A stretch of 64,000 bases of DNA, taken from NCBI GenBank assembly GCA_020747065.1, contig JAGMVK010000030.1, positions 87,255 to 151,254 on the forward strand, written 5' to 3'. The notes below the pieces were generated by a model. That model ran no database searches. It was not told the origin of the DNA and saw only the letters and a program-made list of their open reading frames with translations. Shown here one piece after another: positions 35,454 to 59,555 of the stretch. The DNA is from Cadophora sp. MPI-SDFR-AT-0126 (Eukaryota; Ascomycota; Leotiomycetes; Helotiales; Ploettnerulaceae). Positions within the stretch are counted from its first letter, which is position 1, and each line of letters begins with the position of its first letter. Position numbers and translations under genes: made by a program.

Positions 35454-37303
35454 ACTACGTATTAGTATAGTATATAAGAGGAGCTGAATCTTTACTCCTA
35501 ATGCTCTTAAAAGACATGTAAATATAGTCTAATTCACGAAGAAATAATTGTTTACTCTAGTATCTATTAATATAAAGAGTGTAACTCCTAATTTATTTAT
35601 ACTAAGTGTATAATTAACTATAAACTGCTTTCCTCTTATTAGAGAGTTTAAATCGAGTTTTAATAGATTATATTTACGTAAGCCTAAGAAGGAGTCTTTC
35701 CCTAAGCCTCTTCGTTTTCTTATACTTAATCTTTCTTACTCTTTACTATCTCTTTAGTATTATTATTAATTTCCTTTTTATTAAGGATCTAAACCTTAGC
35801 TGATTTAAAATAGTCTAACTTATAGTATCTAAACTTTCCGTACTTATAACACTTCACTTATAGGTTACTAGAACCTCCCTAAGGTTTCTACGTACTCTTC
35901 TAGTATAATAAGGTAAGAGTTATGATCTGTAGTATTAAGTAGTAGTAGAAAGGAGCGTTAGAAGAAGAAGTAGGTTTAAGTACTAGTTAAGAAGTAGGTA
36001 GTTCGGAAGTCTTCTGAAAGGGGCCTAGCTTAGCTACCCTCTAAGGAGAGTCTAATTTATAGAAGTTAGTAAGAGACGAGTTAAGTTACATATTCCATTG
36101 CTTATTAGTATTAATTAAGATAAGATAAGTTACTATTACCGTATAGTTATCTTATTATAAGCTCTTAACTAACGTAATAGTAGTATAAAGCTAGGAGGTG
36201 ATTTTAAGCTATATAAAAAAGAACTATTTTATACAAGCTATATTCTCTTAAATTATAGTATTCTGAAATCTTGCACGGAATTAAGTAAAGGTTTCACGTA
36301 TATAGTCTAGTTCTTATATATTTATATTAAAGAACTTAGTACGAGTCTTATAAGCTTTATTTCTAGTAAGGAAGTAGGTCTCTAGTAAAGAAATTATTTT
36401 CTAAGCTATCCAAAATATATCAGTTTCAAATAGGTATTAAAGCTCTAGATAAGAGCAGGCTAAGCTAGTAGTTGATCCTTATACTAAAGCTCGCTATACT
36501 TAAGTATCTAAGTAAAGACTTATATTAACCTTTAATTAATCTTTAACTAAAGCTTTCTATTACTTGAATATTAGATTAGTTCTATTATCTAAGGGAGAGA
36601 TCTTTTCTATAAGCTATACCTTAGGTCCCTAAGGGGCATCTGATTCCGCCTTATATATAGTAAGGGGGGTATTTTCTAGCTTAAATAAGGTACGTTTACT
36701 CTAACCTATTAATTCGTCTCTTTCTATTAATTAAATAATCAGTAGTAGGGTTCTAAGGGGAATTAAAGTAGAATTAGCGGAGGGTACTACTAGCGTAGCT
36801 TAAGCGGAAATTAGTAGTTGCTTAATATAAGCTAAGGAGGCCTCTTAAGCACGATTTCGATTCTTTATAGATTAAATAATTTTTCTTAATATATCTAGAT
36901 CACTAAAGTCTCTCTTATCTTAGTTAGTGCGACCTTTACCTTTATTACCTTAAGTCCTACGGCTAAAAAAGCTTCTAGCTAGAGTTAGAGAGTTAAGAGT
37001 ATTATTAGTAACTCCGCTAGACAGACTTACTATATTAGTAGTATCTATAATAGGAATAAGAGAAGATTTAAGCGTGATTCAGGTGCGGCCCGAAATAAGA
37101 GTTCCAGAAGTATTAAAGGGATACTTCGTAATTTCCTAGTAAGAGATATTAGTATTAGAGTAGTTTTTATACGCTATAACTCTACCTCGGAGAGAAATAC
37201 GCAATTACGTTCTAAAGGGGAACAAAGGTAGTTTAAGAGAGTTTTATAAACTTAAGAGTTCCGGTAGCAGTAGTTACGATACCTCAAATTTATCTATAGT
37301 AGC

Positions 37304-37772
37304 TGTAACGGTCTGGTTATTTACTCGGTGTAAATACAGAAGGCTGTAGTTGATCTCGGATGATCGAGAAGTAGGTGTATCATATAGACGATCGAAGATA
37401 GTTACTAAGTATTAGGTGAGAATACTATTTAAAGTTAAGCACAAAGCTCCTACCTAATAGTAGACGTACTAGTTTTATATAGGACCTTCGTTCTTTAAGC
37501 TCTTCCTAGATCCTAAGTTCTAAGGCTCCTAGAGCCCTAGATCCTAAAGCTCTAAAAGGTCTAACTATCACATGACTTAGCCGCGGGAAACCGCTGCCTT
37601 TTTACTGTGTTTTATAATACTACTATAATAAATAACTACATGATACATGTTTCCTAGACCTTATTAGCTCCTAGGAGCTCTACTCCTAGGAGCTACTTAG
37701 CTCTCAGGAGTACGCCTGCTCTCAGGATATTTCCTCCTAAGGCCCTGTAGGCCCCTAGGAGCGTCCGTAACA
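37304..37772 (+). repeat. Solo LTR, TGTAACGG family, 469 bp, inside gypsy copy II
   Basis: Starts TGTAACGG, ends CCGTAACA, and is flanked by GTAGC on both sides (37299-37303 and 37773-37777). The host sequence on either side rejoins perfectly with copy I at about 20940 (ATCTATAG-AGC then CTCTGT). It is related to 27393-27838 in inverted orientation. Because it interrupts copy II, it inserted after copy II was in place. Confidence 0.88.
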
Positions 37773-38017
37773 GTAGCCTCTGTGCGAAAGGGGTTATTTA
37801 GAGTCTCTGTCAATAAAGACTACTCTACTCTAATTATACTAATTTGCAACGAGCAGAACTAAACCCTAGTTCATTAGTTCGTTCAGGAGATCTCTGGAAT
37901 CTTAACTCTTTAAGGATAACAATTAGGGGCGATTCAGATGAGAATCAATCGACTATATCTTCTAGGTAGTAGGATATTATATAAGCTGTCCCCGGTAGGA
38001 GTAACCTTCTTATTTAA

Positions 38018-38239
38018 TATAACGACGTAATATTACTAAGTGCAGTATTAAGTATAAGAGCAAGAGAATAGGTAAATAGTAATATTATAGGTCTAGTACA
38101 AAGAAAACAAGAAAGTAAGGAGCCCTCACAGGGGGAGCGGTCCTATATATATACGAATCTGGTCCGGCTTCCGTCCGGTAATATTCCGGCTAAACCTGAG
38201 TACCCCTATTTCCAGCACTTCCGTCACTTCAACGTTACA
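38018..38239 (-). repeat. LTR of gypsy copy II (5' LTR)
   Basis: 222 bp, much less RIP-altered than its partner at 30008-30229 and closer to the LTR at 21186-21407 of copy I (CCGGCTTCCGTCCGG kept). Followed by AGGTC and then pogo sequence. Confidence 0.9.
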
Positions 38240-39162
38240 AGGTCTTTATCCTATAGACTTAACTATATGACTATTTAGCTAGACTTCTAATTCTAGACGG
38301 CTACGGAAGCTATAAGACTATAGATTTCCTTTGGAGGTGCCTTAAGTATAATATACACCTTCTTTTCTTACCTGTATATACGTTATATGTCTTATAACCT
38401 CTTGATTTAACGGTTTTCTCTGTCTTAAAGCGTGCCTACCGGAAAGAGCTTTAAAAATTGAGTTTAATAGTTGATTCTACGCTAATTAGTAAGCGTAATT
38501 TCCTTATCTGCTACTAGAAGGTATATTTAGAAGCTTTTACCTCTTCTAATATTAAGGCTAGGTAGAGGACTATAGGTCTATAGCCGGTCTTTATAGTAAA
38601 GCCTTTAATAAGCTTATTATTATTAGACAATAGTAATAAACTAATCGATCTACTTCTGCTAAAGCCTTAGGAGACGCTAATACTACCTCTAGAGGTTTCC
38701 GATACTTCAATTAAGGTACAGACTCTAAAGGCTAGGAAAGATTTATATAAACAAATCTGTACTTTAGCTAGCGGGTTATATAACTAACTTTCGGAAAAGC
38801 GTTTACTCTTTAGGAAGGTTATAAAGGGAATTAATAAGAGAGACTACGAATTAGGGAAGGCAAATATAAAGGTTAAAGAGTTAGAGGAGCGAATAGAGTA
38901 AATCCGGCTAAGGAAAAAGAGGAAAGTCTTAACTAGTCTAAATTCCCGGTTTACAATAACACGTGCTATTAGAGAGGCTTAAATTGCAGCTAGAGAGCGT
39001 TAAATTGAACTTATAGAATCAGAATTAGATAGAGATTCAGAATCTATAATATTATATATAGAAGTTGACGTAGAATAGAGTTATTAAGTCTTGAATAGGA
39101 AGTGTTGCAATTAAGCGAGGTGGCCGGAATGGGGGGGTGGCCGGAAAGGGGGGGTGAGACGT
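38240..39162 (+). mobile_element. Right half of a second Fot1/pogo element
   Basis: Aligns with 21450-22368 of the first pogo copy: TTTATCCTATAGACTT, DFLW-region GATTTCCTTTGGAGGTGCC, and the PLDLTVF and AYRKEL region. The right inverted end has CCGGAAAGGGGGGG then GAGACGT, followed by TA (39163-39164). A partial duplication of the end (two GGTGGCCGGAA blocks near 39118-39146) is seen. The left half is missing: upstream of the gypsy copy II there is no pogo sequence. It is less RIP-altered than the first copy. Confidence 0.75.
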
Positions 39163-39164
39163 TA

Positions 39165-39396
39165 GGACGCGTCAGCCGGAAGTAGGTTTTACGGTATAAT
39201 CGGAGCTAGGAGCGAATCAGCGCTGGGGATTCTCGCGTTACGGCGTAAGTTACCTAAAGCCTCTTAGGTTCTAGAATGGACTGCCCGAAGACGTCAATGG
39301 GCACCCTGCCTTATGTAGAGGGGGTGTAAGGTTAAGCATTGTAGAACAGGGCTTATTAAATGAGGTACCCCTAATTCAAAGACTTTTAAACTCACG
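39165..39396. other. Border sequence between pogo half and decayed gene
   Basis: Ordinary base composition returns here. No frame or repeat recognised; it may be the original promoter region of the decayed gene that follows. Confidence 0.3.
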
Positions 39397-41035
39397 ATGA
39401 CCGTACAAAAGCTTCGGCTCTCCTCGCAGACCTAGCTCGGTACTCCAATGATGCCACTCATGGACGCCGTCAGCTTTAAGCACTCCTTCAAGGATATGGC
39501 GATGAGAACTCCTATTGTCCACATCCAACATTTTTTAGCCCTCTTCGACAATATCAGTGCCTCAGCAGCCCTAGTTCAAGACCCCGAATATCCCCAGATA
39601 CTTTTTGTCGCTAAATCCCCTTAGGAGGCGGTTCGTTGGGCTAGAAAGTTCATGTCAGCCAACGAATGGTCCCAGGTTTCCGGTTCGACATTCTAATCGT
39701 TCCAAGGGGGAGGGAAGAAGATCGAAGTAGAAAATCCTACACATCTCAGCAACAATGGGAACACTATCGCTTCTAAGCGCCCATTTCAAGCTCGGAACTC
39801 GTGCAGTGGCTGCGAAGCACCCGACTCCGATGGGTCCGACCCTCTTCAGAGCGACCCCGAGCCGAAGCGACGAAGGATATTGCCAATTGGAGATGAATCA
39901 GACGATCAGCTTTCGTCTGATTTTCAGACTTCTAAGGTTGTTAGCAGGAAACGCCGTCAGAAGCCAAAGGCTTATCATCAAAGGAAATCGCTGTGCAGTG
40001 ATGAAGGGACAGATACTGGTAGCAAGCCAGACTTTTCTGACGCGGATGATGAGGATAATATGAGCCAGGAATGCGCGGAGATTGGAGAGGATGTTTCAGT
40101 TCCTATAATGATGAATGCAGTACTATTGCGACGGAATATTTCAGCCGGAGAACCCGTGGCCCTATCTTACTAAGACCCTTCATCTTCCCAAAGCGAAGCA
40201 GCTAGTTAAAACACTACAGCTAAGCTCGAGCTCGAGAGGTTGGAATCGATTACAGGCGTACAGGCCTCTCCAAACTATCGAGATGCGATCGTCAAGCAGT
40301 GTTTGGCGCTTGGAAAGCGCGAGACTCTTGAAAACTTTCGTTAGGCCTGTTTCTACTGGCGGAAGCACCACATACCTTCGGGCCAGGAATCAACCCATCC
40401 GTACGACCTGACCCTGAAAACACACTCTGCCCTTGAGCAGTTCTCTTACGCCTACCACGTCGCCCAGATAACAATACTCCATCGTGTAGTGTTAGATATC
40501 CTCTACCGAGCTGACCTTGCTCATTTGCACGAGGTCTACCTCGGTACCCTAGAATATCTCTCGCGCTTCTCATCCCAAGAGAAGAAGGTGGCTAAGTCTC
40601 GGCCGCTGGAGGCCTTTGATGGCGATGTTCGCAGTGTTGCTGTTCATTAAATGTATTGGGCATGTTACCCTGACCTTCAAGGAAAGCCCCGCTCGTATAA
40701 CATGTGCCTAGCTCGGAAGTTCACGAAGACATTAGAGGATGCTGAGAGGTGGTATACCCTGCGAGAGAAATTTGGCATTGGTATACTTGCACTCGTTCCT
40801 CGGGGAGCTAACTGGTGGTTTGAAAAGCTGCCGTTCAAGGATCTACCCATATACCTTCGTCTTATCGCAGCAGTCAACTGTCGCAGTGGGCATGGCGGAG
40901 ATGATGGCCAAGAGGGTTCTCTCCTTGTGGAGGCGCGAGGAGCTTCCTGGGCGGCTTCTACGCTTAGAGTGTCTGAAAACCGTTGATGAGAGCTCCTTCA
41001 AAGCTGGCCCTTTGAAGCTTCTCGAGGAGATGTGA
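39397..41035 (+). pseudogene. Long unrecognised gene with in-frame stops and one frameshift
   Basis: From about 39740 one reading frame holds together for over 1.1 kb, broken only by TAA 40171-40173, TAA 40207-40209, TAG 40342-40344 and TAA 40648-40650, each one C-to-T step from CAA or CAG (or similar). It encodes an acidic/basic disordered part (DSDGSDPLQSDPEPKRRR, DADDEDNMSQEC), then an all-helical globular region: DAIVKQCLALGKRETLENF, HPYDLTLKTHSALEQFSYAYHV, LHRVVLDILYRADLAHLHEVYL, EDAERWYTLREKFGIGILALV. Near 40880 the frame shifts by one and goes on as VGMAEMMAKRVLSLWRREELPGRLLRL to TGA at 41033-41035. I do not recognise the family; it has the look of a multi-copy fungal accessory gene. 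The N-terminal 340 bases from ATG 39397 have two competing frames. Confidence 0.55.
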
Positions 41036-41217
41036 AGGAATGGTCAGGTGACTTTCATACTTCTTGTATATATTACTATACACGGCATTTTGCGTTAGAG
41101 CTCTCCTTACGATCTCGTCTCTGTTTGTAGACAATCACAACGCCCGTTCTTTAGATATGACTTTGACATTTAAATAACAATTAACTACGATAATGATCAT
41201 TTCAATACAATATGGAA
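41036..41217. other. Short AT-richer spacer
   Basis: Between the convergent ends of two decayed genes; no feature recognised. Confidence 0.3.
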
Positions 41218-44200
41218 TTAAAAGTGCTGCTGCGTCAGCTTCATTGTACGCTGCCAGCTAGGAGGCTGTTGAGCGAGATATTCGTAAAACTTCGCAATTC
41301 TCCTTCCTGCGTCAGCCTCTATCGAAATCGGACATCTAACTTCTTCGGTCGCAAGTATATTCAGGTCTGTCGTACGCTGGATCCCTATTTCTAATAGTGG
41401 TGGCAGAATCTGATGGTCTATAATAGTACGTCCGTAGTCGTTGAGTGCCGAAGCCAGTTTATGGAGGTTAGGGCAAATGATATGGAGCCGGTCTATAAAC
41501 CAGCTCCACGTCGCCGTATTGACGTCCGTTAAGCATTGCTCCACGTTCCACTCCTAGTTTATGGGAAGGAGCAGGCCTAGGCTAAAGGTACTAGATTGCT
41601 TCCACTTCGAGTGCTGAAGGAGGGTTAGCTACTGGCGAAGATTCCGAGCTAGAGAATACTAGTAGGTTTGGGACTACTTACTAAACTCTTTTAGGTTCAG
41701 GCCTAGTAAGATCTCTTAATACTGTCAGTCTAACAGCGTATCAGGTATATTGAAAATAGTAGAGCTGGGCGAAATTTGCTCGGCAATCGTACTCATGAGG
41801 ATATTCCGCCACTAGTACCCTTGATACTGAACTTAGTACACCTTAACTAGGCCTGAGAGTAGCGATGCGCTTAAGTTATGGAACGGATCAGGTAAGTCTT
41901 CGTCAGGATTGAACTTGAGAATCTCTTTGCGAGATCATAGCCGCTCTGCCCGGATAAAACCCATGGCACGCTCTATATTCTCTCCAGATATCAGGTATCC
42001 AAGAAAACCTATGCACGTATTGAAAGACGTTAAAGAGACGTATAGTATTTCCTCGGCATCGCTCGCGTAAGCTGCTTCTTCATCGACTTAATAATCCTTC
42101 CAGAAGTCATTTAGATGTCGGAAACCCTTCTTCTCGTACTCCGCGAGCGTCGCCTCCTATAGGAGTGTATTTCCGGAGTGGATTCGGATACGTTGCTCGT
42201 TGTCTGCTCTTAGTCGTTTCCTCCCCGCTATATTAATATCACGCTCTTTTAATAGTCTTTTTTATCTACTAACCCCTTTTTTATAACTTAAACCTCACGA
42301 TTAAGCTCCACTATCCTTTCCAGATCCCTAAATATATACTACTTAATTGAATTATATAAATACCGTAGAACTAAATCTTCTGTGAGCCCTGTAAGTATCC
42401 CTAACGATCTGGTATAACTGTTTCTATGGGTTTGTACACTATACGTGCATTACTATGCACTAATCTGCTCTTCTATAGTCGACGGTTCCTATAGATTAAG
42501 TATTTTAATAGGATTCTCCATATTTCTTTGCAATAGCGACAGCGGCTTATCAGTAGAGTCCTATTTTCAGCGGTATAGATGGCACTTTATTGGAATATCG
42601 CTTTAGAGCCCTTATACTCACGTGATGCTACGCTAGTGTAGCTAGCTAGGCATAAATAACTACATAGAGTAATAGGTACAAGTTAAGTAGTTGTGAAGAG
42701 GATAATATATTAAAACTAGACTAAGGGCTATCTACTTTCCTCTGTTTTCCCCCTGCTACGTTAACGTTAAGCTCCTTTAGTGCCCTCTTTTGCCTATAAG
42801 AGCCCTCCGCTTTAGCTTAGTAATGATACCTAAGCTTCACCATCCTTTCCAGGTCTCCGAACGTGTGCTACTTAGTTGAATTATACAGGTATTACATAAT
42901 CAAGTCTTTAGTAAGCCCCGCAGGTATATTTAACGATCTGGTGTATATATTCCTGTAAGTACGTATATTATGCGTGTATTACTATATACTAACTTACTCC
43001 GCTATAGAAGATAGTTTCTATAGATTAATATCTTTAATAGTATTCTCTAAATACTTTTTTATAATAGTAATAAAGGCTTACCGATAGAGTCCGATCTTTA
43101 TAAGTATAGATAAGGTGTTTATTAGACTATGAAGAGCTAAGCTTCTATCTATAGTACTGAAGTGCTTGCGTGATAAGTGGTATGATACATATAAGTACGT
43201 AGTTCTCTTAGTATTTTATGGAGCGGATACCTTCTAGAGCGAGTCTGTAAAGGGTCTGATATATGTAATATATAGGAAGAGAAGACGAGTAATAGACTTT
43301 GGAACCGCACGTATAACCTAGAAAGGCTTCCCAGTCGAATTTTTTAGCTTGGAGTTATCTGTTATTATAAGTATAGTCCTATATTATATGTAAATGTTCC
43401 TAATGTATTCTCGAGAATTCGCCTATGTAACTAGATTAATCTCGGTCCTGCGTTCTGGAAGGCTAAAGGTAAGGTGGACCGCGGTGAAGAGGCTCTGAAC
43501 TAAGATATCTACGTCGCGGAGATACTCCTAGTAGCGGCTAACTTAGTACTAGAACTTCTTATCTATAAGATAGCGAGGGCTCTTAGCTGATGTAGCTACT
43601 ATTCTTAGAGTATAAAATACTTTCTGGAGATTATTATGTTTATCTATTATAAACGAGTATCTGATGTTCTAATTAGCTAGATTATTATAGATTTGATTAA
43701 GGTTAGTATCTGGTTTAAGGCTGTATATTAATTACTCTACTATCTCCTCTGTAGCTAAGATAATGTTTACTCTCATCTAATGGAAGTCCTTTATTATAAG
43801 TGTTATATTCTTCTTTAGCGTTTCTAGAACTAGGGTATTATCTACTTCCTCGGTTGTCCGCTACAGAACTGTAACCTTCCCTCCTTCTTATAGCCTTAGT
43901 TCGTTGTCCTTAAAGAGCAGGTCTAGTATTGTATCTAGCGGGTATAGGCTCTCGTGTTAGACGTACTTTATCCTGATATAATGGAGCCTGCTTAGAGGGT
44001 TAGGGGACTAGGTTCGCGATGCTTTTAGCCGGTTAGGGCCAGTTAAACCTGTGTAAGCCCTCTCTAGTAGAGTATACTCTAAGAAGAGTAGTCGCGATAT
44101 CCATACTAGTCCGGCGAGAATAGTAGTGAAGTCGTATAGCGCTTTTCAGAAATACGTCTTCTTATCGATCCCTAAGACTCTAACGAAGTATATTATTATA

Positions 44201-44980
44201 TAATTCTTATGGCTACTACCTAGGTATAGGATCGTGAGGAGATTAATTAATATATTAAACAGCTATACTACTAAAGCATTATGAGTACTATTATCCGTTA
44301 GCTTAAGCTCCTAGGCTATAGTTAGTTGTTCGGCTACTTCTTCCGAGTACACTTAGCTATAGACTGTGTCTCTATCGCGTTAGTCGAAGTGATATACGCG
44401 GAAGAGGTAGGAGGCGAGTTATTTCCAAGTACGGAAGTACTTATCTAGAGAACTCTGCCGCTGATATTACTTGAACGCGTTGGTATAGTAGCTATTGTCG
44501 ATGCTATTAATCTAACGCGTAACTAGCGTCTTTGTCGTGTTTAAGGTAGATAGGCACTGCTCGAGTATCTACTGTAGTGCTACTATAATAGCATAAAGCC
44601 TTTCTTCGAATTGTCTGTCCTACTATATCGTGACACTGTGATATGTTCCTACGGTTAGCCTAGCGCGCCGGCTTTTAGGCGAAGCAGAGGGCGGCTTCTT
44701 AGTGATAGCGAGGATATTAAGCGGCCTGCCCTTAAACCTTATTAGCTATTTTATGTGATACTTAAGCTATGCCGTACTCTTATCTTGATTCTTAGTATTA
44801 TTTTCTTACTAGTTCAGCCTCCTATCTTCCTTCCGTTTCACGTCCTTTTCCGCCTCTATCGCTTTAATCACTTATTCGTAGGCTGTTTTCGGTACTAGTA
44901 GTATTCCAGACTGCATAACGCTACTAATGATCCAGTAGGTACTGCGTGTATTGTTTACTTATCTCTGAACTCTTACCTCC
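41218..44980 (-). pseudogene. RIP-damaged long gene, likely subtelomeric RecQ/TLH-type helicase N-terminal region
   Basis: The minus strand from an ATG near 44979 (MEVRVQR) downward gives a long coherent frame interrupted only by TAG/TAA where Gln fits. Blocks include LDKYFRTWKQLASYLFRVYHFD (about 44400), ILAGLVWISRLLFLEYTLLERAY (about 44080), NPLSRLHYIRIKYV then PLDTILDLLF (about 43950), and ITRLLFLYILHISDPLQ (about 43250). These match my recollection of the region before the helicase domain in fungal telomere-linked (TLH) RecQ proteins, including a Tyr-Arg ... Thr-His-Asn recombinase-like segment near 42950-43100. A 300-bp stretch of that segment is duplicated in tandem at 42290-42600 and 42830-43110. 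The last 326 bases (41218-41544) are stop-free, encoding 108 residues. No helicase motifs (DEAH, QxxR) follow, so the catalytic half is absent. Family call is moderate. Confidence 0.45.
42290..43120 (-). repeat. Tandem duplication of about 540-bp period within the TLH-like relic
   Basis: Two parallel segments, about 42290-42600 and 42830-43110, share CCTTTCCAG, ACTTA-TTGAATTATA, AACGATCTGGT, CTATAGATTAA and TTATCAGTAGAGTCC/TTACCGATAGAGTCC in the same order. On the minus strand both encode IGLYRQA...KKY...LTxDL...YLYNS. The copies are now diverged, mostly by transitions. Confidence 0.65.
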
Positions 44981-45728
44981 ATAACGGTTGTCCTACTACT
45001 TCTGGCCTAGTATTTTCGAGTACTCCTTCTCGACGTGTACTTTCAGAACGCTGTCTTCCTTCCGTGTGCCTTATAGGTATAGACAAGTACAATACTATAT
45101 ACTATTAAGGATAGGTAGGAAGGGGAGAGGCTCAGAGCTATGGAGAGGGACCGCTAGCTCTACGAGTATCGCCTTCGGCCGGGGGCGAACGACCTAGGTA
45201 GCGTTGAAGATAGGCTACTATATTACTAGCGGTAGCTTATAGTCTCAGTTAAGACGTAAGTGGTTCTTGAGTTCGCGAGACAGTATAGCGGAGTTATGCT
45301 TAGTGCAGAAGAGGGTACCGAACTCGGGAAGATAAACAATACCCTCTCTAAGGGACTGCGACCGGAAAGTCATAGCATCCCAGGACATGACTCTGTGAGA
45401 TGTGTATGCGTTTGAAAGGTCTACTAGAGACGCGTCGCGTCCGACAGTACGTTAATGAAGACATGAGCCGCGTGCGCGGGCGTGGGCCGAGGCGCTAGTA
45501 TAGTCTTACTAGGTGACTGGGGAAGATTAGCATAGCGGATAGCGAAGCTAATCGCGTTTGCAATTGAGTGGAGGTTTAATATTACTCATATGTAGGAGAG
45601 CTGTTCCGGGTTAGAGCGCAATTACCTTAGTGGGAATGACTACGGCAGCCCATTGTAGGTCGAAGTACAAGTGGGCGGAAGTGGGGTATCCGCGAAGGGC
45701 AATAATAAACCCCGCCCCTGGAACCCGT
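44981..45728. other. Mixed-composition spacer before the T-free island
   Basis: Moderately GC sequence without a convincing gene; a 69-codon plus frame at 44988-45197 is the only open stretch and overlaps nothing recognisable. Composition is not RIP-like between about 45120 and 45728. Confidence 0.3.
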
Positions 45729-45756
45729 CACCAAGCCCAACCCCCACAAAAAGAAA

Positions 45757-45829
<73 letters not shown>

Positions 45830-47379
45830 CCCCGAGGCGAGCGGCCGCCAGCGGGGCCCGGGGAAACGGAGCGGGAGCCGAGGGGAGGGGAAAAGAAGCG
45901 GAACCGGGGCGGGGAAGCGCCGAACCGGAGGCGAAGAACGCGGGGGCCGAAGAAAAACCCGACGGGCGAACGCCGGGGAGACCGGGGGGGAACGGCGACC
46001 CCGCGGCGCGACCCCGGGACGGAAACCCGGCGGCGGCGGCGGCCCAACCGGGAGAGCGCCGCCGCGCGCCGCGAGCGGGGCGGGGAAAGGGCGGGGGAAC
46101 GCGGCGGCGAAGGCCGGGGACGGGGGACGAGCGCGGGGGGACGGGGGAGGACGCGCGGGAAACGACGGACGCCGGCGACGGCGCGGGGCGGCCGGGGCGC
46201 CGGGGCGCCGGGGCGCCGGGGCGCCGGGGCGCCGGGGCGCCGGGGCGGCGGGGCGCCGGGGCGGCGGGCGCCGGGGAAAACGCGACGGACACCCGGGCGG
46301 AACGGACGCGGGCGGCCCCCGAGCGGCCGGCGGGAAACCCGCCGAACGGCGCGGCCGCCGGGAGACGAGACCCGACGCGCGCGCCGCGACGACCGCCCGG
46401 CCCGAACGCGAACGCGCGGGCGGGCGGGCGGGGCGAAGGCGAGCCGCCCGCGGGAAACGGGCGGGAAAGAAGAACCCGACGAACCGGAACGCGAAAGGGG
46501 GAGGCCGGGGGGAAGGAGGAAGGACGGGGAGGAGAAGCGCGAGGAGAAGGAGGAGGCCGGGCGGAAGGACGGGGGCGGGGAAGCGGGCGGAGGACGCCCC
46601 GAGGGCGAAAGGCGGAGGGAGGGGACCCGAAACGCGAGGGGGAGGGGCGAGAGACGGCGCGGGGCGGAAGAAGGGCCGCGGGGCAACGACGGGGGCCGCG
46701 GGGGGGCGGGGGGCGGGGAGAGGCCAAGGGACGGGCGAGGAAAACAGGGGACGGGCGGGACGGGAGGACGACGGCGGAAAAACGCCCCGCGGGCGGACGC
46801 GGCGGAAGGACGCGACGGGGACCCCGAACGGCGACGCGGGGGCGAACGCGAAGGGGACCGGCCGGGCGGCGGCAACCGGGCGGCCCAAAAAACAACCCGC
46901 GGGGGCGCCGGCGGCGGCGGGAACCGCGGGGAGGGGGAAAAAGAGCCCGAGGGGCGGAGACGGAGAGGCGACGAGCCGCACGCACGGACGCACGGACCGA
47001 CGGAGGAGGAGAGAACGGGGGGCGGCACCGCCCGGCCCCGGACGGGACGGAACCGGACCGGGAGGGAGCGAGGCGGGCGGGCGGGCAGGCACGCGGCGGG
47101 GACCCGGGGGAGGGAGGGAGGGAAGGGGAAGGCCGGGAGCGCGACCCGGAAAGCGAAGGAGAACGCCCGGGGAGCCGCCGGGACGGGGAACGAGCGGACG
47201 GCGCGGGGACGGGAGAGCGCCGGAGAGGCCGCGGCGAAAAGAGCCCGCGGGCGGAGTGACGCGGCGGTGAAAGCCGACCGCGGGGGGACCCGGACGAGGG
47301 CCGCCGGGCGGAGGAGGCGGAAGGAGGGAGCGGGAGACCGGGCGGGGAGAACGGACCGAAGCCGGGAGCGAGACGCGCC
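45729..47379. other. T-free, extremely GC-rich purine-skewed island with GAAA microsatellite
   Basis: From 45729 to 47256 I find no T on the + strand (1,528 bases); up to 47379 only two Ts occur (47257 and 47268). It opens with a GAAA/GAA microsatellite (45748-45829) and then consists of G-rich, C- and A-containing sequence with many G4 runs, plus a stretch of GGGGCGCC repeats at about 46190-46262. Edges are sharp: at about 47380 ordinary AT-rich sequence resumes within a few bases. Because stop codons need T, three plus frames and, on the other strand (which lacks A), several frames stay open for 450-594 codons. Their Arg/Gly/Pro/Ala-only translations are not proteins. Neighbouring DNA on both sides is RIP-rich. 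Could be a real non-B-DNA-forming repeat or an assembly/basecalling artefact. Confidence 0.9.
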
Positions 47380-49290
47380 TTTGTTAACCTCCTAGCTGTT
47401 TCTAAACTCATATTCCTCGGTATAACTTATTTTCTCTTTAATCTATTAAACTCTTTTCATCTACCTCTTTTTCCAATTGCTCTCCTTCTTCCCTATAGGG
47501 TCACAATTAGCGCTTCGCGCTTATAGGTTCGAGTTAGTTCTTATAATCTTAACCCTATTTTAAATAATAATAGCAGCTTAGTATTAGGATCTAATACTAT
47601 TTATATATACTCTATCCCTTCTACTGATGAGCTTAATGCTATTATATATATAATATATCGATTAATATTAGGCCCTAATACCCTATGTTCTATACTATAG
47701 CTGGATAAGACTAAGCTTTATAAACCCTAACTTTTTAATAATATCTAATATTCTTACAAACGAGTTCTATATTCTACTAATCCCCCTGTTCTTATTTACT
47801 AACATGTAAAATACTCGTATAATCCGCGCTACTTTAATCCCCTCCTACTAAATCCCCTAACGGAACTACTTATACACTTCCGCTTGCTTGGTTCATACTA
47901 CTTCATCTCTTTCTATCTAATTCCCAAATATTACCTATTCTTTGTTATATTTATTTATTAATATTGTTATGATTGCGAGAACTAATATCCTAAAATATTG
48001 ATATCATTGCCCTAGCTTCTCCTTCCCTCCCACTTCTATACTAATATACTATTGCTAATATATTGCTTATAGAACCCTATATAATGAATAACTTCCCCTA
48101 CCCCTAAAACCACCTAATGCTGCAATATACTATTGTATAATAGTAACCTAGTTAATGATCTTAACTGTGTTATGCTACTAATAATCCAATATCTGGTGTA
48201 TCTTACCCCTGAAATCCCCGGCTAAATAATACGCTAGGTATATTTAATACTACTTCTCTAACTATTTCTCTAAATAGTCTAACCTCGATTATACTGTCCT
48301 ATTATACTAACATGTAATCTAGTACTAGAATAGACTATTACTCTTGTCACCGCTTTAGTTATTATTAGTAGTCCTAGTTATAGTACTAGGTTCTGGTAAT
48401 TCTAAACTATTATTAATACCTTCTGATCTTTTTTTTAATTATCTAATCAAAAATAGGGGAACTGCTAGGCAATACTACATTATCGTTCTAGCTATTAGGC
48501 TCTATCTTACTATTATTTTAACTACTTTTTATTACTACTTTACTATCCTTAAACTACGATATCCTCTTTTATCGCTTTATACTCCTTTATTCCCTTCCCC
48601 TAAACCCCGGATTAGAATCCTAATACCTGCTATTCTTAGAATTGATACCTACTATCCTACTATCCTTAAATTTAGACTGCATTTTTCGCTTCCGCTTCTT
48701 AGCCCTCTACTTCCGACTAGAACTGCTATTTATACAATTAATGAGCCTAATAACTTCTCCTTTATCATTATCTGCAACCTTACTACTTTAAACCCCGTTA
48801 TTACTCTTACTAATCTTAATCTTGCTTAATCCTTCTCCTTTGTAATTATCTATTACCTTATTACTTTTCTTATAATTCCTATTATTACTCCTATTGACCT
48901 TAATCTTGCTTAAATCTCCTTCGCTATTCTCTACTATATCCTTATTACTCTTTTTGTAATCTTCATCCTAATTGTTATTAAACGCATTAAACACCTTTTC
49001 TTTATTATTAATTACCTTTTCCTTAACCTAATTATTAACAATGACTTTAATACTATTATTAACGACTTTTTTAACAACCTTATTCCCTACTTCTTCTTTT
49101 TCCTTATCCCTGGCTTTACCTACGCTAACTTCCTTAACCTTATATTTCCTATATTTGTACTAGCATTAATAATACCCTTATTATCTCTCAAACCTAATCT
49201 ACTTGTACTCTCTTTCTTCTCTTTAATTCTAGTATTCATATGATTATCCTCTCTCTTATTCTTATCTATTACCTAATACTATTATTAATG
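47380..49290 (-). pseudogene. AT-rich Lys/Asn-rich coding-like relic downstream of DUF3505-like segment
   Basis: On the minus strand, 48600-49300 reads as low-complexity Lys/Asn/Ser/Ile sequence with loosely repeated blocks (NKVIDNYKGEGLSKIKI-like, about 96-bp spacing near 48740-48960) and a basic cluster KKRKRKMQSKFK near 48660. It directly follows, on the same strand, the zinc-finger-like segment at 49290-49760, so it may be the disordered part of the same gene. Below 48600 no reliable frame was seen. A short hairpin AGCGC-TTC-GCGCT lies near 47512. Confidence 0.35.
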
Positions 49291-49760
49291 ATCTTAAAAC
49301 TATAACTGCAATTAGGCCGCTTTAAATAATTTATTATCGCTTACCCTTTACTACTTATACTCCTTGTTCCTATATACCTTCATGCGTTTCCGGTTACTGG
49401 ATTTGAATGGGTATATTCGGCATTAGTACCCATTAATCACTAAAATAATTAGCTATAGTCTGGACCTGTCCTCAGGTAACTAGATCATCGAAAAATCATA
49501 ATCCCAACTAAATCCCTTGATATACTTCTGCACTCGTTCGCGGTCATATAACAGGGTCTTATATTAGACACGTAAATGCTTACTAAACGCGCGTGACTAG
49601 ACGATCTTACGGCACTTATTATATAGGTAAATAAATACTTAAAACGCGACATTCACTTGGATTAAATCTTCTAATTTGGGCGGGAATATTTATAGGGCAC
49701 TAATTATTCATATTAAATACGTTATGTAAAGTAGAACTCTTAGTATTAGGCCCTGATACT
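49290..49760 (-). pseudogene. DUF3505/TLH-type N-terminal segment with damaged C2H2 finger
   Basis: Minus-strand translation: LYDRERVQKYIKGFSWDYDF, then LPEDRSRLQLIILVINGY, C, RIYPFKSSNRKRMKVYRNKEY, RVSDNKLFKAA and LQLQ. This is the layout of the N-terminal domain of fungal telomere-linked RecQ-type helicase proteins, where a CxxC pair, then RKAMxxH and KEH form a C2H2-like finger followed by ...LFQxVxLQxWF. Here one Cys and both His are Tyr, each one transition away, and TAA/TAG replace Gln. A related copy of the preceding 80 bases is at 53046-53124. This may be the 5' part of the relic at 41218-44980 (same strand, correct order) split by the T-free island. Confidence 0.5.
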
Positions 49761-52700
49761 GTTCGTGTTCACGCTTGCTACCTGCTCTTACGTGACCCTG
49801 GCAATAGTATTAGGCCCCTAATATTCGCCTACGACTGCCATTTACCCCTACTAATTTATTATTATACAATTAGTAGTAATATAAAAACTTCCCTATATCT
49901 CATGCTATTACCCTTAACTTTTGGATACTATAACTAAGCCTATAAAACTGTATAAGATCCTTTGACTTATAGTTGTAAATGCCCTTATATTATTTACTAT
50001 AAAAACTTATATAATAAAGAGTTTAAATTTCCTTAAAGCTAAAAGAAATTATAATTATATGACTATAGTATATCAGCTGCTATTATATATTAAACAGATC
50101 TATATTATACTGCATTTCCAAAGCCTACTATTTTGTCTTTACTTTATATCGCACTTGCTAATGATACTGTGCTCGCCCTTAATGCCGTACCCTATACGCT
50201 AAGCGTATGACTTCCTCTGCTCTTAAGCGCGAGTATCGATTATTACTTAATTATAAAGGAATTTATACTACTAGTCTAGTCATATGTACTGCCCTAGCTG
50301 ACTAATACAAGTAAGCTAATTATCAGGACTAGGATTTTCCAAGTAGTTGGTTTTTAAGGCTTTAACTTAGGCTAATAAAGATATTCTTTCAGAGTTCTGC
50401 GGATATTTAGGGGAATCTTACTAAGACGATTTATTAAAATAGTAGTTTATAAGCTACGAATCTTTAAGAGGCTCTAGATCCCTAGGGAGTCTATATTAAA
50501 TAGCGGTGTATGACTCGTAACGTGAATTTGCAACTATTGTAAGTATATCTAATATAAATTAGTTATCAGTAATTCAAACGCCTTGTAAGTGTAATAGATG
50601 TTATATTCCTAGTTCAGTATAACCTAGTTGTCTCGATAGATAATGCGAATATATATAATATTAGCTAAGCATTAGCTAAGTATAATAGCCTAGGTATCTT
50701 ACTAGCCTAGGCCGTTAGTAAAAAATCGTATAAGAGTCTATAAATCCGGGAAGTTGAGGGCTTTCCTAATTATAAGTCAAGTATTAAGTAGCCGGTGGCA
50801 AAAATACTGGCTGCGCCTCTAAAGTCGCTTATATAAGATAAGACGTTTACTACTAAAGTTAAACTCGCTCTTCTATCTAAGGTAAGCTTCGCGAAAAGCT
50901 GACGAGACATAGGCTACGAGTGTATAGCAAGTACTTAGATAGCTTAAAAGTCATATATATAAGCCGGCGTAGTAGATAATTCGACTAATAATCTCTAAAG
51001 GCGCTTGAGTTATGCGTGTGTAGAAAGAAGTAAATGTTAGTGATAATATTAAAGCTATAGTAAATTAGCGTTGTATGGAAAAATAAAGAAATTGCATTAT
51101 AGAGATAAGGGAGTGAGTATATATTAATAAGTATAGTTACACTGAATTTTTTTGCTTTTAAGTTATTAACTAATTATTAGTAAGGAAGATATTTATTAAA
51201 AGCGTGAAAGCTTATACTAGAATTGTATAAGAATATTTATATTAATAGATTATAGAGTTCTTTAAATAAACTCCTAACCTTAACCTCTAAATCCTAATAC
51301 TCTAGATTATGATTCCTAAAACTATTAAGGGCTAGGTTAAATTCCTAATATACTAGAATTACTACTTATATTATTCTACTAATCCTATAGTATACGCTTC
51401 GGATATCTCTACTAAACTGACTTTAGAATACCTATCTAACGGCATTTGTTTTATTTAATTAGCTGCTTACTAGCTTATTTTTCCAACAAGAGTACCTCCT
51501 TTATATAGACGAATAATATATTACTAATCATAGCCTAAGTACAAAGCACCTTATACGAATACTACATAGCTAGAAAGCTAAGCAGGTCCTAAATATACTA
51601 AAAAGACAAATTCAATAAAACCACTTCGCTATCCTGCGAACTATGCTATATAAAGACTCCTTTAGTATATGCATATAAGTATTTAAATCAGTAGCTATGT
51701 AAAGAAATACCTAATTACTATAAGCTAGACACGTCTTAATACCTATAGACCTAATATTACAGAGAGGCTTAGAAAAGTATACCTCTTTATAGTTTAAATA
51801 TAGTATAGTATTAAGATATAGAGATCCTAATTATTACTTAGATATACTATTATAGTATTATAATTCAATTATTATATAGAGATATTATCGTAAATCCAAA
51901 TATCTTTATCTTACTCTAAAATCTGTATAATTTATTAATTTCCTTACATATGCAAAGGACTTGGCCTATAAACTAATTAATCCTAATAAAATACCTATAG
52001 AACCTTTATATAAACTAATTAGATTATACTAAAGAGATGCGAGTACCCTTATTCTATACTATTAACTACACTGGATTATTTACTTTTCAATTATTCCTTA
52101 AGTCCGTAATTACTTCTCGGATATGTCGCTACCCCTTGCAAGAGAGCAAGATTTAGTTGAATAAAGGAATTCCATTGAGTATGAATCTAGGGATTACGAT
52201 AGATATTATGAATTAGATTTAGTAATTATGGTAATGAATAACTAGTTGTAATACTAAAGAGGATATTTCTTATACATCTTACAATTATGCTCTTCTAATA
52301 TAGATAAGTAGAGTGCTAAGACTAAACTTATACTGCTCGAGTACTATCATATAATAATAGTAAAAAATCAATTGCTACCTATTTATTTTCTATGAAGCTA
52401 CATATCCTACATTACCTTTTAAGTAAGACTACGCTCCTGTGCGTTTAGCTGCAAGTTGTGTTATACTTATATAAAGAAGACTACCACTATCTAATGGGGT
52501 ATTCTACTAGCAGATGACTACCTAATCAAGTAGGTAAAAATATAATTTAAGTTAACAAAGACAAGTAAGAGTTAAGAGTACTTAGATAAGGTAGTCTTGG
52601 CGGTAATATAACATCCAAGAATATCTGAGACTAACTTAGCACCTGACTAAGGGTCCGTAGGGTAGACGAGAAATCAGATATTAATTTACTATATTAATAC

Positions 52701-55700
52701 CCTATATAATATAATAACTGTTATTATACAAGTAAGACTATACTCTTAAGTAATACATATAATATTATTAAGAATCTATTTTTAAGGCAAATAAAACTAA
52801 GTATAATGATTATTAATAAATAATATTCAATTGTTCTATATAGAATCCGAGAAAATTTTCTAATAGTACTAAAAAGCTTAAACTGGATTAGAGCAGCTAC
52901 TATAACCCTAGCTTCCTAAATTGCCTTACTTCTACTAAAGCTTGTTTTTCTACTATAGTAGGTAAGAAAGTCGTTAATAAGCTTAAATCTCTGCTAAAAG
53001 TACTCAATTAATTACTTAATTGCGTTAATATAAACATTTACTAAGGTCAAATCTTCTAATTTAGGCAGATTTTATGGGGGTACTAGTGGTTCATATTGAA
53101 TATACTATATGGAGTGGAACTCTTATACCCTATGTAAAAGTAATATCTAAAGTAGTAGTATCATACTCATATATACTAGCTAGTATAGTAACTGCTTTCC
53201 TAATCTATATCCCAATAGATATTGAACTTACTTGGACTAAGTAAGTAATGAAAGAGTTAATAGCTAATTAAACTACTCTTTCTAAAATCGTATTAAATGG
53301 ATTTTTATATGTATAGCACTAGATATCCTAATATATATATTAAATCCAAGTGTAAAGTATGTCTTGTAACCTTACTCTAGTTCTGTAATAATTAGTCCTT
53401 AATACCTACCTCTCGTTACCCTAACGGTATAAAAACGCTACTACTATTAATTATTATAGCTGTAAAGCTTTCATCCCACTCATTGCCTTAATGTCTTCTA
53501 CTATTGGATTTTCGGGTTAAAAGCAGCTATAATAGCCCTGCAAGTTTAGAAGACTAAGACTAATGATTATTTACGCTTATTAACCTTAACCTCTGGTCTA
53601 GGATTATTATTACTAAGATTTGAACTATTATCTTAGATATTATTATCAAGTATACTTATAATTAAATCCACTCATCAGATTTTTTAGTTTATTTAAGCTT
53701 TGATTTTTAATCTACTTTAATATCTTTAGCTTTAGTAGTTGTGTTTACTTTCACACGAGGATAAATCCTTTTACCCTAATACTTCTTTCCTAATTACCTA
53801 AAACTCTTTGGTTTTTTCTTGTTTATGTACCTTGAGTTCTTAAGTACTATATACACTAATAAGTTAGGAAATATCCTATATATTTTAATACTGATTATTA
53901 CTAAATATTTACTATCATGTATTTTATAAAATACTATAAAGGATAATAGGGTAGGAGCGGAAAAAAAGCTCTACTTTTCTCAGGATCGGCATATATAGCC
54001 GAAAACTACATTATCTATTCCTTTAGATCTTAATTATAGTTAGTCTTTGTTAATATAATAAAGGTGGAATATAATAGATACGGGAGAACCTAATGTATTA
54101 GATAACTAAAGTAAAGAACTCATCTAACTACTTATCTGCGCGTTTATATCCAGACATTACTTAATTAATTCGAAGGTCTTTTATAGGATGACTTAGTATA
54201 ACTTATTACCTTAGCTATAGCGTTCCTAGCTATCTTCCTAGAGAAATAAGAAATCGAGGAAGATTAGTCACTCTCTTAAATCGTATTTTATTTCTAGTTA
54301 TAAAATAAGGTGGATATAATCAATCTCGTTAATAGAAAATATCTGCTTTATACAGCTCTAATAAAATTAGATGTTTCTCTTTACTGATTGCATGAATATT
54401 AATTTAGAAGATTACTTATAGGATTTAAGCATAGCCTTTCAATATCTATATTAAACTGTTTAAAGTTTAATACGTGGAGATATTTAAGTCACTTGCCTAG
54501 AAGGGCTCTACTGTACTGTATATTATTTGATTATACTAAGACTTAGCCTAATTAAACTGAACAATAGATATTTCGGAAATCTGTAATTACTCGCCCACTG
54601 TTATCTATACTTCTTATATATTAATATATTCTCTACTAGAATATTCTCTCTATATAGTGGTGCGAATCGCTATATTACTTAATTGATCTTTGGCAAGAAT
54701 CAGCTAAGTCCATATTATTTAATAGTCTATTGTATCCCTAGACCTTCTTTTATAATCGGCTTTTTATTATAAAGATTCTTTTAGTAATCTTGGTATAGGA
54801 ATAATTTACACTAGATCAGGTTATTACTATAGTAAAACCGAAGTGCCCTTAACGTAATTACTATAATAATTATTTCTAGTAGTAAATATATTATAACTAT
54901 ATGAGTAAGAATATACTTAAAGAGAAAATAGTACTTGTTAATCTAAGTATAGAGAAAGCTAAGAAGCTCTTTTATAGGGATAATATAATAAAAGGAGTAA
55001 AGATAAGGCAGTATTAATCTCGTTATTATATAGATCCTATTAGTACTACTACTAGGTAATCTCCTCTATTATTGTTAGGAAGATACAGTATTCTTCTTAA
55101 ATGCTATACAACTTTCTTAGTTATTAACCAGATTAGTATAAGCGCGTTTCTTGCTATAGAGATAGCTAAACTTACAAATACCTTTTAAAAAAGTAATGCC
55201 TTTACCTCTTACTAAAGTAATTGAATATATCTAAAATCTAAGACTAAATTCTTAAGGGACTTATTATTAAAGATATATACTTTTAATATATTAAATAAAG
55301 TCTTAATTAAGATATAGAAGTAAGAGTATATTAATCTATCTTAGCTTTCTTTCTCCTGCGGTATTATAAAGAAGGTCTAGTCTATTATATTTTGTATAGT
55401 TGCTTAAGGATATGTTATATATTTAGGATTCCCCTTAGCTGCACTTCTATTAGCGTAAGAATAGTCCGTGTTTTTATATACGTATTTAAGTAATACTTCC
55501 TTTATAAGAATACCTCTGCCTTATAATTTTCTGGGATATGATTATATAGTAGAGCACTATCTTCTGAAGTAGTCTACTTCGTAAGATCAATAAATGCGTA
55601 ATCTTTATTATAGAACTATGAATCAGTTACCTAAGACTAGAAATATTCCTAGCCTTCATAAGTTATAGTTAGATTACTAGTTATATCTATAGACTCTAGT

Positions 55701-58160
55701 TTAGTGTTTTTTGTATATAAAAAGAGTGGCCCTCTAGAATCGATAATAGCTAAGGTTCTTAGTAATAGTCTTAAGTATGAAGCTCTAAAGAGTATCGAGG
55801 TACTAAGGTTATAAAGCGTACTTTAAAAGCTATTCTTATGAAGAATCTTTCTAAGCGAGGCTCTTTACAAATAATGCAATTAAGTCTATATTAGTAATAC
55901 AAGCGGTAGCTAGGTAATGTTACAGAATATTAGAGGATCGAATAATCTTGTAAATAGCGAGACTCAGGATTACATTATATAATAATTCTTGGTCCTACTT
56001 ATTAAGATATATTAAATACTTATAATTACTCTTAGTATAAAGCGTAAGAAAAAAGATAAAGATAAGAAGTCCTTTTATACTAATCACAGAGCTAAAGCAG
56101 GAATAAGGGATCTTGTGAAGAGAGGTATATTTCTAACTTAATACCTTACGCTTATTATAAAGGGACTTTTAAGCTAAAGTAAATATCTGCACTAAGATTA
56201 AGAAAAGGATATACCTTAGAAAACTAATTAATCCCCTAATAAGCAACGGCCAAACTAATCGGGAAGTAGTAAGTGCTATTAATATTAAATAATACCTTAG
56301 TACAACGGTTTTTTCTATTAGTAATATAATATTGCAATAAGTACAGATTTATGGGTAGCTTTTTATCACGAGTTTTAATATTTTTAGGGGCAGCTAATAT
56401 ACTGGTGCCTTTAAAGACTACTTGGCAGTCTAGACTACTAAAGTCTATTAACTTCATTAATTTAGTATTATTAAGGATATCTAAAAGGAGTATATCTTAG
56501 TGATATTCACGTAGGATATTACTGATCTATTAAAGAGACAAGCACTTGGAATAGATATCGGAATATTCATAGTACTCTTGATACAATTAATCTGTCTTAT
56601 AGTTGCTACTCGTTGTATATACACTCCTGAAACTTTCGAAGCTGCTTGGCTAATTTAAAGGCAGTTCGCTTAATAGGGACTGGAGATGCTATTATATTTA
56701 GGAAGGCTTTTAGTACTAAGGAAGCTATTATATATAGGAACTATTAGTACTAAGGTAGAAGCTAAGATAAGTATAAAGCTAGCAAAATCTACTATTATCT
56801 GAATTACTGATTAAGCAGGTAAAGATAGTGTAAAACTTTTAATTTAATGGAAGAGTGAAGGCGAAGTATTGCTAAGAGGCCTCTTTAAGGCTAGGGGGAA
56901 GATATGCTATTTATAAGTAATATTACTAAAGACTTTATTTATGATAAAAGATTATTCTTTTAAACAGGGAATAAGTACTTCGTTTGCTAGTGCTTTCTTT
57001 GCTGATTTTGTTTGATAATAGCAAAGGAGTTAACTTGTACTAAGTTAGTGTTTGTAATAGTACTATGTTTTTTAGAGATCTTTGAATACTTTGCTGGTCT
57101 ATTAGATATATTTGATATAGTAATACTATTATTGTCCTATATCATAATTGACTTATTTATAAAAGCAATTTGTGAAGAGTAAGAATGCTATGGCTTCTTA
57201 TTATAGGCTCCCTTCCCTTTGCCCGCTGTATTTAAATCCTCTATTAATTGCTTTCCTAGTAATCCTGATTTTCTACTAGTTCTGGCCTTCTTAGTTATAT
57301 TAGCTAATCGTAATCTAATTAAAATTTCTATAATCTTTACCTTATATTTATCTCTCTGAAGATTCGCCTCTTATTATCTATTTGGATCTGCTTGATTTGC
57401 GTAATAACTTTAGTATCTTTATTAATTAAAGGTAATTGAGTCAATAGTAGGGAAATCAGTTGCAGGTTTTGTGGAATATTACTCGATTAAATATTACTAT
57501 CTATAGGTATTTAAATATCAGAACTTGTTCAAAGTCCGTTAGGAGGAGTATTAGTCGGTATATGGGTAAGGGGCTTGTAGGTAATAAAAGAAGCTGGACT
57601 AATAATTTAATGTAACGCCTGCTGCGATTAATAATACGAACATAGCTTACTCGCTCTCGCAGCCTCTACTGCATCTAGATCGGTTAAGTGCTTTCTAGGC
57701 CTACTGCTATGTTTTTTTGGAGATTGATTTAGAGCTATTGAAATAAGGATAAAGAAGAAAGTAATTCTTTGAGTACTTATATAAGACTAGAAAATAATCT
57801 TGATTCAGTTAGCGCTTTCCCCTGCCTACTATACAAATTAAATGGGTCTATAACTTAACTAATTCCACTATTAAAGCTCAGATAATTATATTTAATTATA
57901 TATTTCTTATAATAATATTTAAGGTTATCTGATCTTTTTATTATATCTACAATTGATTGTGTTAGGCATAGGTGAAGTAGGACTAGAAAATAATCTTAAT
58001 TAGGAAGGCGGTGACCTACCGGCAGTACTAGGCTTTTTACTAAATCAAGAGGCGCAGTACTACAATACCTACCTTTGATCAATTATATATTCCACTATAA
58101 TGCTTATACATATATATATATAAATAAGTATAGTATTACTTTTAAGTAATTTTAGATAGA
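49761..58160. other. AT-rich RIP-like desert, no assignable genes
   Basis: More than 8 kb with very few open frames; the longest is 73 codons on the minus strand (56236-56457, KLIDFSSLDCQVVF...). Neighbouring minus-strand sequence (56460-57240) is also coherent if TAA/TAG are read as Gln (NISNRPAKYSKISKK, LVILLINSISSP), so a decayed gene or element probably runs from about 57240 to 56236, but no family is recognised. A segment at 53046-53124 repeats 49664-49742. The tract resembles layered, old, RIP-saturated transposons. Confidence 0.5.
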
Positions 58161-58680
58161 AAATATACCTTAAATCCTAAATCCTATCCTAACTCTTACC
58201 CTATATTTCCCTTTTATATCACCCTATCTATTACCCTATCTATCACCCTATCTATTAATTACAACTATACCTGCAAATTTATCGCGCGAAGCGATACAAG
58301 GCACTAGCCTTGATATATATTATATATTATATATAATACTTAGGGTCAGGCTTAGGGTCAACCTTAGGGTCGACTCTATACTCTCAAATTTATCGCGAAG
58401 CGATGCAAGGCGCTAGCCTTGATATATTATATATATATATAATACTTAGGGTCAGGCTTAGGGTTAACCTTAGGGTTAGGCCTAGGGTCAACCTTAGGGT
58501 CGAGCTTAGAGTCGATTCTATACCCTCAAATTTATCGCGAAGCGATGCAAGGCGCTAGCCTTGATTTATATTATATATATTATATATAATACTTAGGGTC
58601 TAGCTTAGAGTTAACCTTAGGGTCAAGCTTAGGGTCAACCTTAGGGTCGAGCTTAGGGTCGAGCTTAGGGTCGAGGAATA
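58161..58680. repeat. Subtelomere-like minisatellite with TTAGGGT words and hairpins
   Basis: Three imperfect units of roughly 110-140 bp, starting near 58276, 58383 and 58525. Each has the hairpin TATCGCGAAGCGAT, the palindrome AAGGCGCTAGCCTT, an AT run, and then a series of CTTAGGGTC words spaced about 12 bp apart (more than a dozen in all). On the left (58190-58255) are CACCCTATCTATT repeats, the opposite-strand version of a TAGGG word. TTAGGG is the usual fungal telomere repeat; here it occurs in degenerate, interspersed form. Confidence 0.75.
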
Positions 58681-58689
58681 TATTTAAGC

Positions 58690-59202
58690 CCTAGCTTCGG
58701 CAAAGCCGACTAAAAAAACACCTGTAAAGGTGCTGAGAGACGCTGGATAGTACGCCATAACCAGGTTACCTGTGCATTTACAACTACCCTTTCTAGCCGG
58801 GAAGACCTAAAAGTCGAATCAGAGCCTACACCTATAGCTATAGCGTCTATACTCCCTGAAAACAGCTAACGGCCTGATTTTTCAGTACTTCTAGGTACCT
58901 CTAGACACTACTACGATATACAGATCGTTGCTATTAACAAGGACTTAGCACGAGAGGAAGCCTACGCTACTCTTATAGAGGCTGCAAACGCTAAACGCCG
59001 TAAATATAGTGACCTAGGCCCTGTATTTCACCCTTTGATTATCTCAGCCGGCGGCCTTATGAAGAGAGATATAGCGATAGCTTACAAGGCTCTACAGGAC
59101 CTCTTAGGGCCCTCTAGAGCTAAGTGGCTCGACACTTATATCGCCCTAACTCTAACTCAGGCTCGAGATATCGCTGCAACCTTGATTCTAGTACGCAAGT
59201 AG
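58690..59202 (+). pseudogene. LINE-like 3' coding end (unproved), about 115 codons intact
   Basis: The last 345 bases to TAG at 59200-59202 are open except for one TAA near 58869. They read RHYYDIQIVAINKDLAREEAYATLIEAANAKRR, then YSDLGPVFHPLIISAGGLM, AYKALQDLLGPSRAKWLDTYIALTLTQARDIAATL. A FHPLIxSAGGLM...LQxLxGP...WLD...ALTxAR string is what I associate with the C-terminus of fungal non-LTR retrotransposon polyproteins. Two small hairpins (CGGC-AAA-GCCG and CACCT-GTA-AAGGTG, 58702-58734) precede it. Composition is not RIP-like, unlike the flanks. No reverse transcriptase core is in the window. Confidence 0.42.
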
Positions 59203-59415: not shown

Positions 59416-59555
59416 AGATTACCTCTCTTTCTGTAATATAGCGTTCTCCTCCTGTATTTATAGTACTTCACTCCCTGTATTTAGTTCCTATTTTACGAGA
59501 GTTAGAGAGAGAGTAAAAAGCACCTGTAGTAAGTTAGCTAGTTAGAGCCAAATCA
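59416..59555. other. Spacer with T-rich sequence
   Basis: No frame or repeat recognised; ends in an AGAGAGAG run near 59501-59512. Confidence 0.3.

Follow-up and report, generated by a model that had tools for sequence, protein, structure and literature searches.

A 1.5-kb T-free tract in a Cadophora genome assembly very probably reflects T called as G in a G-free stretch, on falsely duplicated contigs

False duplications and haplotig contigs are known in genome assemblies, and differences dominated by indels are a mark of poorly polished long-read sequence. Systematic long-read faults that depend on sequence context have also been described. At telomeres, nanopore base calling turns short tandem repeats into other repeats of similar current in a strand-dependent manner, with PacBio HiFi reads as the clean control (Tan et al. 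2022, PMC9414165). In the T2T human genome, PacBio HiFi coverage is reported to drop out at GA-rich sequence (PMC9186530). In a limited search of the open literature, by titles and abstracts, we found no description of a clean one-base swap of T to G, and we are not aware that either of these two studies reports a swap of this kind in sequence without repeats.

Here we describe a locus in Cadophora sp. MPI-SDFR-AT-0126 at which such a swap appears to be present in the assembled sequence. The window, by which we mean the whole 64,000-bp stretch analysed, comprises bases 87255-151254 of contig JAGMVK010000030.1 (151,254 bp; hereafter C24), that is, the end of this contig, in an assembly of 53.96 Mb and 38 contigs. 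The preliminary description of the window had reported zero T in 1,528 consecutive bases and two T in the next 123, and a letter count reproduced these figures exactly.

45729..47256, plus strand: completely T-free run of 1,528 bp (letter count)

This is the longest T-free run in the window and lies far beyond chance. The second, of 111 bp, follows at 47269-47379, with T at 47257 and 47268, and the third-longest in the 64 kb measures 33 bp. Between 45830 and 47379 the composition is 52% G, 28% C, 20% A, and 0.1% T. TRF assigns about 311 of the 1,650 bases of 45730-47379 to tandem arrays, and most of the tract is without tandem repeats. Rfam and tRNA scans of the window returned nothing, and a Pfam scan of five window open reading frames gave a single hit, to a protein kinase (7399-7995, minus strand). 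At 25487-26464 the window encodes part of a protein whose closest named match, at 86% identity, is from Halenospora varia, followed by matches from Hyaloscypha, Stipitochalara, and Acephala. Elsewhere in the window, at 58265-58675, AT-rich sequence contains a tandem array of 12-bp units with a TTAGGG-like motif (CTTAGGGTCAAG and variants).

The T-bearing counterpart of the tract

When the tract was searched against the assembly as DNA, it had one other match, at 93%, on C31, a contig of 19,063 bp that is a copy of window 44874-64000 and stops at the same base as C24. A third copy of the right flank, at 99%, lies on the 2.98-Mb contig C35, which holds the locus again at C35:61.8-81.0 kb. Both flanks are found within C35:57000-66999 with T-rich sequence between them, and the two 500-base bins wholly inside this T-rich sequence contain 2 G with 263 T and 1 G with 262 T. 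Contamination with vertebrate ribosomal DNA spacer, an origin suggested by the look of the tract, was dropped once the C35 partner had been found.

We compared the tract with C35 in a three-letter alphabet, in which G and T are treated as one letter. Window 45601-47500 aligned to C35 over its whole length at 97.8% identity, with 2 mismatches and 30 gaps. The 400 bases from 45830 to 46229 scored 387 against C35, compared to 26 for the best of 100 control stretches, and plain, A=G, and C=G comparisons of these bases with the same C35 partner each scored 8. A search for a T-bearing copy inside the window and in C24:77255-87254 gave three-letter matches no better than those of reversed, shuffled, and reverse-complement controls. 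The alignment with C35 defines the following features.

45671..47423, plus strand: full T-to-G zone and true extent of the anomaly, reading as C35 with T written as G and with A and C kept (three-letter alignment of C24, C31, and C35)
45830..47379, plus strand: core of the zone, in which 801 of the 804 aligned C35 T are G
45750..45829, plus strand: (GAAA)20 microsatellite that is (TAAA)20 in C35, 20 of 20 T being read as G (tandem-repeat search and alignment)
45671..45735, plus strand: mixed left edge, in which 9 of 17 C35 T are G in C24, interleaved with correct T; in C31, 16 of the 17 are T and one faces a gap
47380..47423, plus strand: mixed right edge, in which C35 T reads as G at 4 sites in C24 and 6 in C31, partly different ones, with other mismatches in addition

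Apart from the 801 G, the partnered T of the core are represented by 2 T and 1 C, and 21 more face a gap. Aligned A is unchanged at all 309 positions and aligned C at 430 of 431, and 4 G face G. The same change is present in C31 in a noisier form, with 763 of 790 partnered C35 T read as G. One fixed base is thus changed while the other bases are kept, and the normal base is found at the same locus elsewhere in the assembly. The change does not bear the signature of RIP, which is C to T in CpA; here T becomes G and C is untouched. These results bear on several points of the preliminary description. A mutational process that removes T from one strand had been proposed there, and we find that T is not removed but written as G. 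The tract had also been characterized as dominated by G, full of G-runs, and rich in CpG, which is accurate for the letters as they stand, although it is the substitution that produces the G-runs, the abundance of CpG, and any potential for G-quadruplexes. The edges, said to be sharp, are mixed on both the left and the right.

Composition gave a further indication of the kind of change. The triplets of the tract diverged from those of the right flank by 0.04 when T was converted to G, compared to 0.34 when T was deleted, 0.48 when it was converted to C, and 0.51 when it was converted to A. This poor fit, together with the substitution seen against C35, ruled out a loss of T by deletion. When T was converted to G in other parts of the window, their dinucleotides agreed with those of the tract just as well, so the composition fit is not specific to the flank and backs the kind of change, not the place.

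The two G-bearing contigs do not agree with each other on where and how the change occurs. At the left edge C31 has T where C24 has G, and at the right edge each contig has T at sites where the other has G. Inside 45830-47379, the two differ at 57 substitution columns and 84 indel columns of 1,580. Since the same site of one locus was called both ways, and since the contigs also disagree internally, we conclude that the letters in this zone are not reliable.

The sequence beneath the zone has an unusual composition in C35 as well. C35:62661-64448 contains 4 G in 1,788 bp and is thus nearly G-free on this strand, with fairly sharp edges: in bins of 100 bases, G amounts to 3-15% on its right and mostly to 10-37% on its left. 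Its core is about 53% T, 27% C, and 20% A. In window coordinates this stretch lies at about 45722-47480 and so nearly coincides with the T-to-G zone (45671-47423), suggesting that T was called as G because G was absent. Where the stretch begins and ends, the alternate contigs have T and likewise lack G (C31 at 45722-45752; C24 and C31 at 47424-47480). The G-poverty is therefore real at the ends, and it is likely real in the interior of the C35 stretch.

These observations also bear on the reading that both versions are wrong, in which the true tract would have T and some G, written nearly all as T in C35 and all as G in C24 and C31. Its appeal lies in the C35 stretch having fairly sharp edges too, and in the share of CT plus CG, which rises from 14.0% in the flank to 18.5% in the C35 tract; the share of AT plus AG falls from 14.5% to 6.9%, so that this weak test points both ways. 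The alternate contigs, with T and no G at both ends of the stretch, argue against it, and we consider it unlikely.

Redundant contigs at two loci

The T-to-G zone lies within a longer part of C24 that is repeated on C35.

37009..64000, plus strand: stretch repeating C35:53947-81009, probably a redundant copy of one locus; C24 ends at 64000 and C35 runs on
37009, no strand: abrupt breakpoint, at which the identity of C24 and C35 ends within different copies of a transposon-like repeat family

From 37009 to 40062, C24 equals C35 to the base for 3,054 bp. From 40062 to 45833, a BLAST comparison with C35 gave 29 mismatches, equal in number to the 9 plus 20 T/G sites, and 4 gaps. Compared with C35 over the approximately 17.3 kb that lie outside the zone, C24 has 11 substitutions and 92 indel columns, and C31 has 3 and 93. 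These counts were taken from a four-letter alignment, and those from the three-letter alignment (35 and 22 substitutions), in which many G/T differences went unpenalised, were set aside. The flanks are thus near-identical and their differences are mostly indels, the pattern of a false duplicate; judged from the sequence, C31 and the end of C24 appear to be a single locus assembled redundantly and with many errors. Over the final 4 kb we observed 0 differences between C24 and C31 in 4,020 columns, compared to 20 indel columns and 3 substitutions that set C35 apart from both (three-letter alignment). The lack of any difference between C24 and C31 in this part suggests that the two contigs were probably built in part from the same reads and so lack full independence. 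Both contigs end at the same base, at GGTACC (window 63995-64000), where C35 continues.

At the breakpoint, C35:49001-54241 matches window 15705-20945 at 84%, as part of a 7.76-kb element, and window 1-2500 had no near-identical copy elsewhere in the assembly. The element, a transposon-like repeat at window 13650-21407, recurs elsewhere, in full or in part, at least 17 times with identities of 82-90% (17 scored of 317 candidates). In the simplest reading, C24 was probably mis-joined at 37009, the repeat having led its assembly across into the C35 locus. A genuine duplication, of about 27 kb and necessarily very recent, is a possible alternative.

We sought further cases in the whole of C32, the first 10 kb of C29, and the 1.5 kb at the ends of C25 to C30. 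The start of C29 (24,394 bp) provided one. Bases 176-2500 of this contig match C5:38269-40588 at 98%, and a four-letter alignment of the two over approximately 3.5 kb contains 24 substitutions and 66 indel columns. Bases 1-175 are without a near-identical DNA match; in the three-letter alphabet, the match to C5 continues through them (C5:38.08-38.27 kb), with a score of 139.5 compared to a maximum of 36.5 in 200 controls. Within the first 180 bases of C29, 69 of the 89 partnered C5 T read as G, 16 as T, 3 as A, and 1 as C, and 13 more face a gap. The C5 stretch is T-rich and G-poor, and the error zone in C29 contains true G (4 G-to-G columns in the first 180 bases), so the trigger would be a G-poor and T-rich composition and not strictly the absence of G. 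The change thus recurs at an unrelated locus in the same composition context, making two loci in all.

C32 (11.7 kb) is also redundant, matching C33:1522404-1525162 at 98% over 2.8 kb. It was considered as a third case because of a 60-base T-free run (2301-2360) and rejected, as this run is poly-G and is shorter in C33. No T-to-G tract was present between C32 and C33, with only 2 G/T differences in 2,803 aligned columns. At the ends of seven small contigs, where 9 of 12 stretches were readable and 3 consisted of N, there was no T-free or A-free run of more than 40 bases, and the start of C30 had no near-identical copy. The redundant contigs of this assembly, C32 included, seem to sit at base-composition extremes. 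Two of the other small contigs, C26 and C28, measure exactly 25,000 and 27,500 bases, which is unlikely to be chance and perhaps reflects trimming or windowed consensus.

Explanations and comparison with known systems

The tract is almost certainly a technical artefact and not a real feature of the genome, and T is very probably the true base at the affected sites. As the best overall explanation, we regard it as highly probable that T was called as G in a G-free stretch and that the contigs carrying the change are false duplicates. The real locus would be as on C35, with a T-rich, nearly G-free strand over approximately 1.8 kb. In a subset of reads, nearly every T of this strand would have been called G, and the altered reads, being no longer alignable to normal ones, would have ended up in separate, poorly polished duplicate contigs, namely the end of C24 and C31. 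We infer that the fault arose in the base calling of some reads, which the assembler then split off.

How a caller might do this can be sketched tentatively. If T were told from G, and A from C, by relative signal level, a long stretch lacking one base of a pair would leave the caller with no reference for calibration, so that the labels might swap; on the opposite strand, the same fault would read A as C in a C-free, A-rich stretch. PacBio Sequel instruments use two-colour, two-brightness fluorescence detection, a scheme that would group the bases into pairs of roughly this kind. The fault might alternatively lie with a neural nanopore caller or in the consensus step. For a PacBio project covering Halenospora varia, the use of RSII or Sequel instruments, Falcon, and Quiver or Arrow is reported (PMC8664821), and any link of that project to this genome is only conjectural.

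Several observations count against an artefact. G stands on two contigs and T on one, although C24 and C31 may share reads. The G version is clean, with no T in 1,528 bp, which requires the underlying reads to be consistent with one another. C24 also joins a different left flank than C35 does.

The differing left flanks, together with a change that is nearly complete and clean, would be accounted for by a real and recent segmental duplication in which one copy underwent complete strand-specific conversion of T to G (A to C on the opposite strand) by a mutator acting on the G-free strand. Such a history does not readily explain why C24 and C31 disagree far more inside the tract than outside it and were called differently at edge sites, or why C29, which is also redundant, carries a partial version. 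RIP should moreover act on duplications of such length, yet no base differs along the leftmost 3,054 bp. To our knowledge, no process turns every T of one strand into G over 1.5 kb while sparing A and C, and we regard this history as extremely improbable. We give just as little credence to a chemical modification of T in some nuclei or molecules that a nanopore caller would read as G, the underlying sequence being that of C35. A modification would yield a base-specific reading of T as G and leave A and C as they are; the error tracks base composition at both of the unrelated loci, for which a fault of the caller is simpler, and we know of no thymine modification of this kind in Helotiales. Taken as one proposal, a recently duplicated copy with near-complete, strand-specific T to G over a G-free tract, through a mutator or through modified thymine read as G, and partial at C29, is very improbable.

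The least credible reading is the genuine purine/C-only satellite, forming G-quadruplex or triplex DNA, that the preliminary description had listed: the sequence as written is indeed G-rich with many G-runs, but most of it is not tandemly repeated, and in the assembly the T-free form occurs only on C24 and C31, the latter a redundant contig of the same locus, whereas the T form stands on C35. The remaining option of the three offered there, a long-read consensus artefact, is supported by C35, but its seeding by the adjoining GAAA microsatellite is not, since that array is itself (TAAA)20. Other (GAAA)n arrays are present in the assembly on C4, C23, and C34.

A miscalled stretch as the best explanation removes spectacular but false biology, be it a G-quadruplex satellite or a mutator that removes T. 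It would also mean that a public assembly can carry a long, clean replacement of one base, complete with G-runs and CpG islands that are absent from the DNA itself, and that duplicate contigs can arise from such a replacement. Provided that the association with G-free or C-free sequence holds, further cases should be findable elsewhere as T-free or A-free runs of a few hundred bases that have a three-letter partner.

Like the telomere miscalls described for nanopore reads (PMC9414165), the change reported here would be a context-dependent, systematic alteration of base identity over a long stretch. The tract is for the most part not composed of short tandem repeats as in the telomeric cases described there; unlike in those cases, a mostly non-repetitive 1.5 kb is affected, and one base is replaced with A and C left intact. 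The dropout of HiFi coverage (PMC9186530) is likewise a failure of long reads at stretches poor in some bases that breaks the assembly graph; coverage is lost in the dropout as described, whereas here the wrong sequence would have been kept as a false contig. The resemblance to haplotigs lies in small, error-rich contigs that repeat parts of chromosome contigs (C31 and the end of C24 with C35, C29 with C5, and C32 with C33). Unlike haplotigs, C24, C31, and C29 were probably split off by a base-calling fault and not by heterozygosity.
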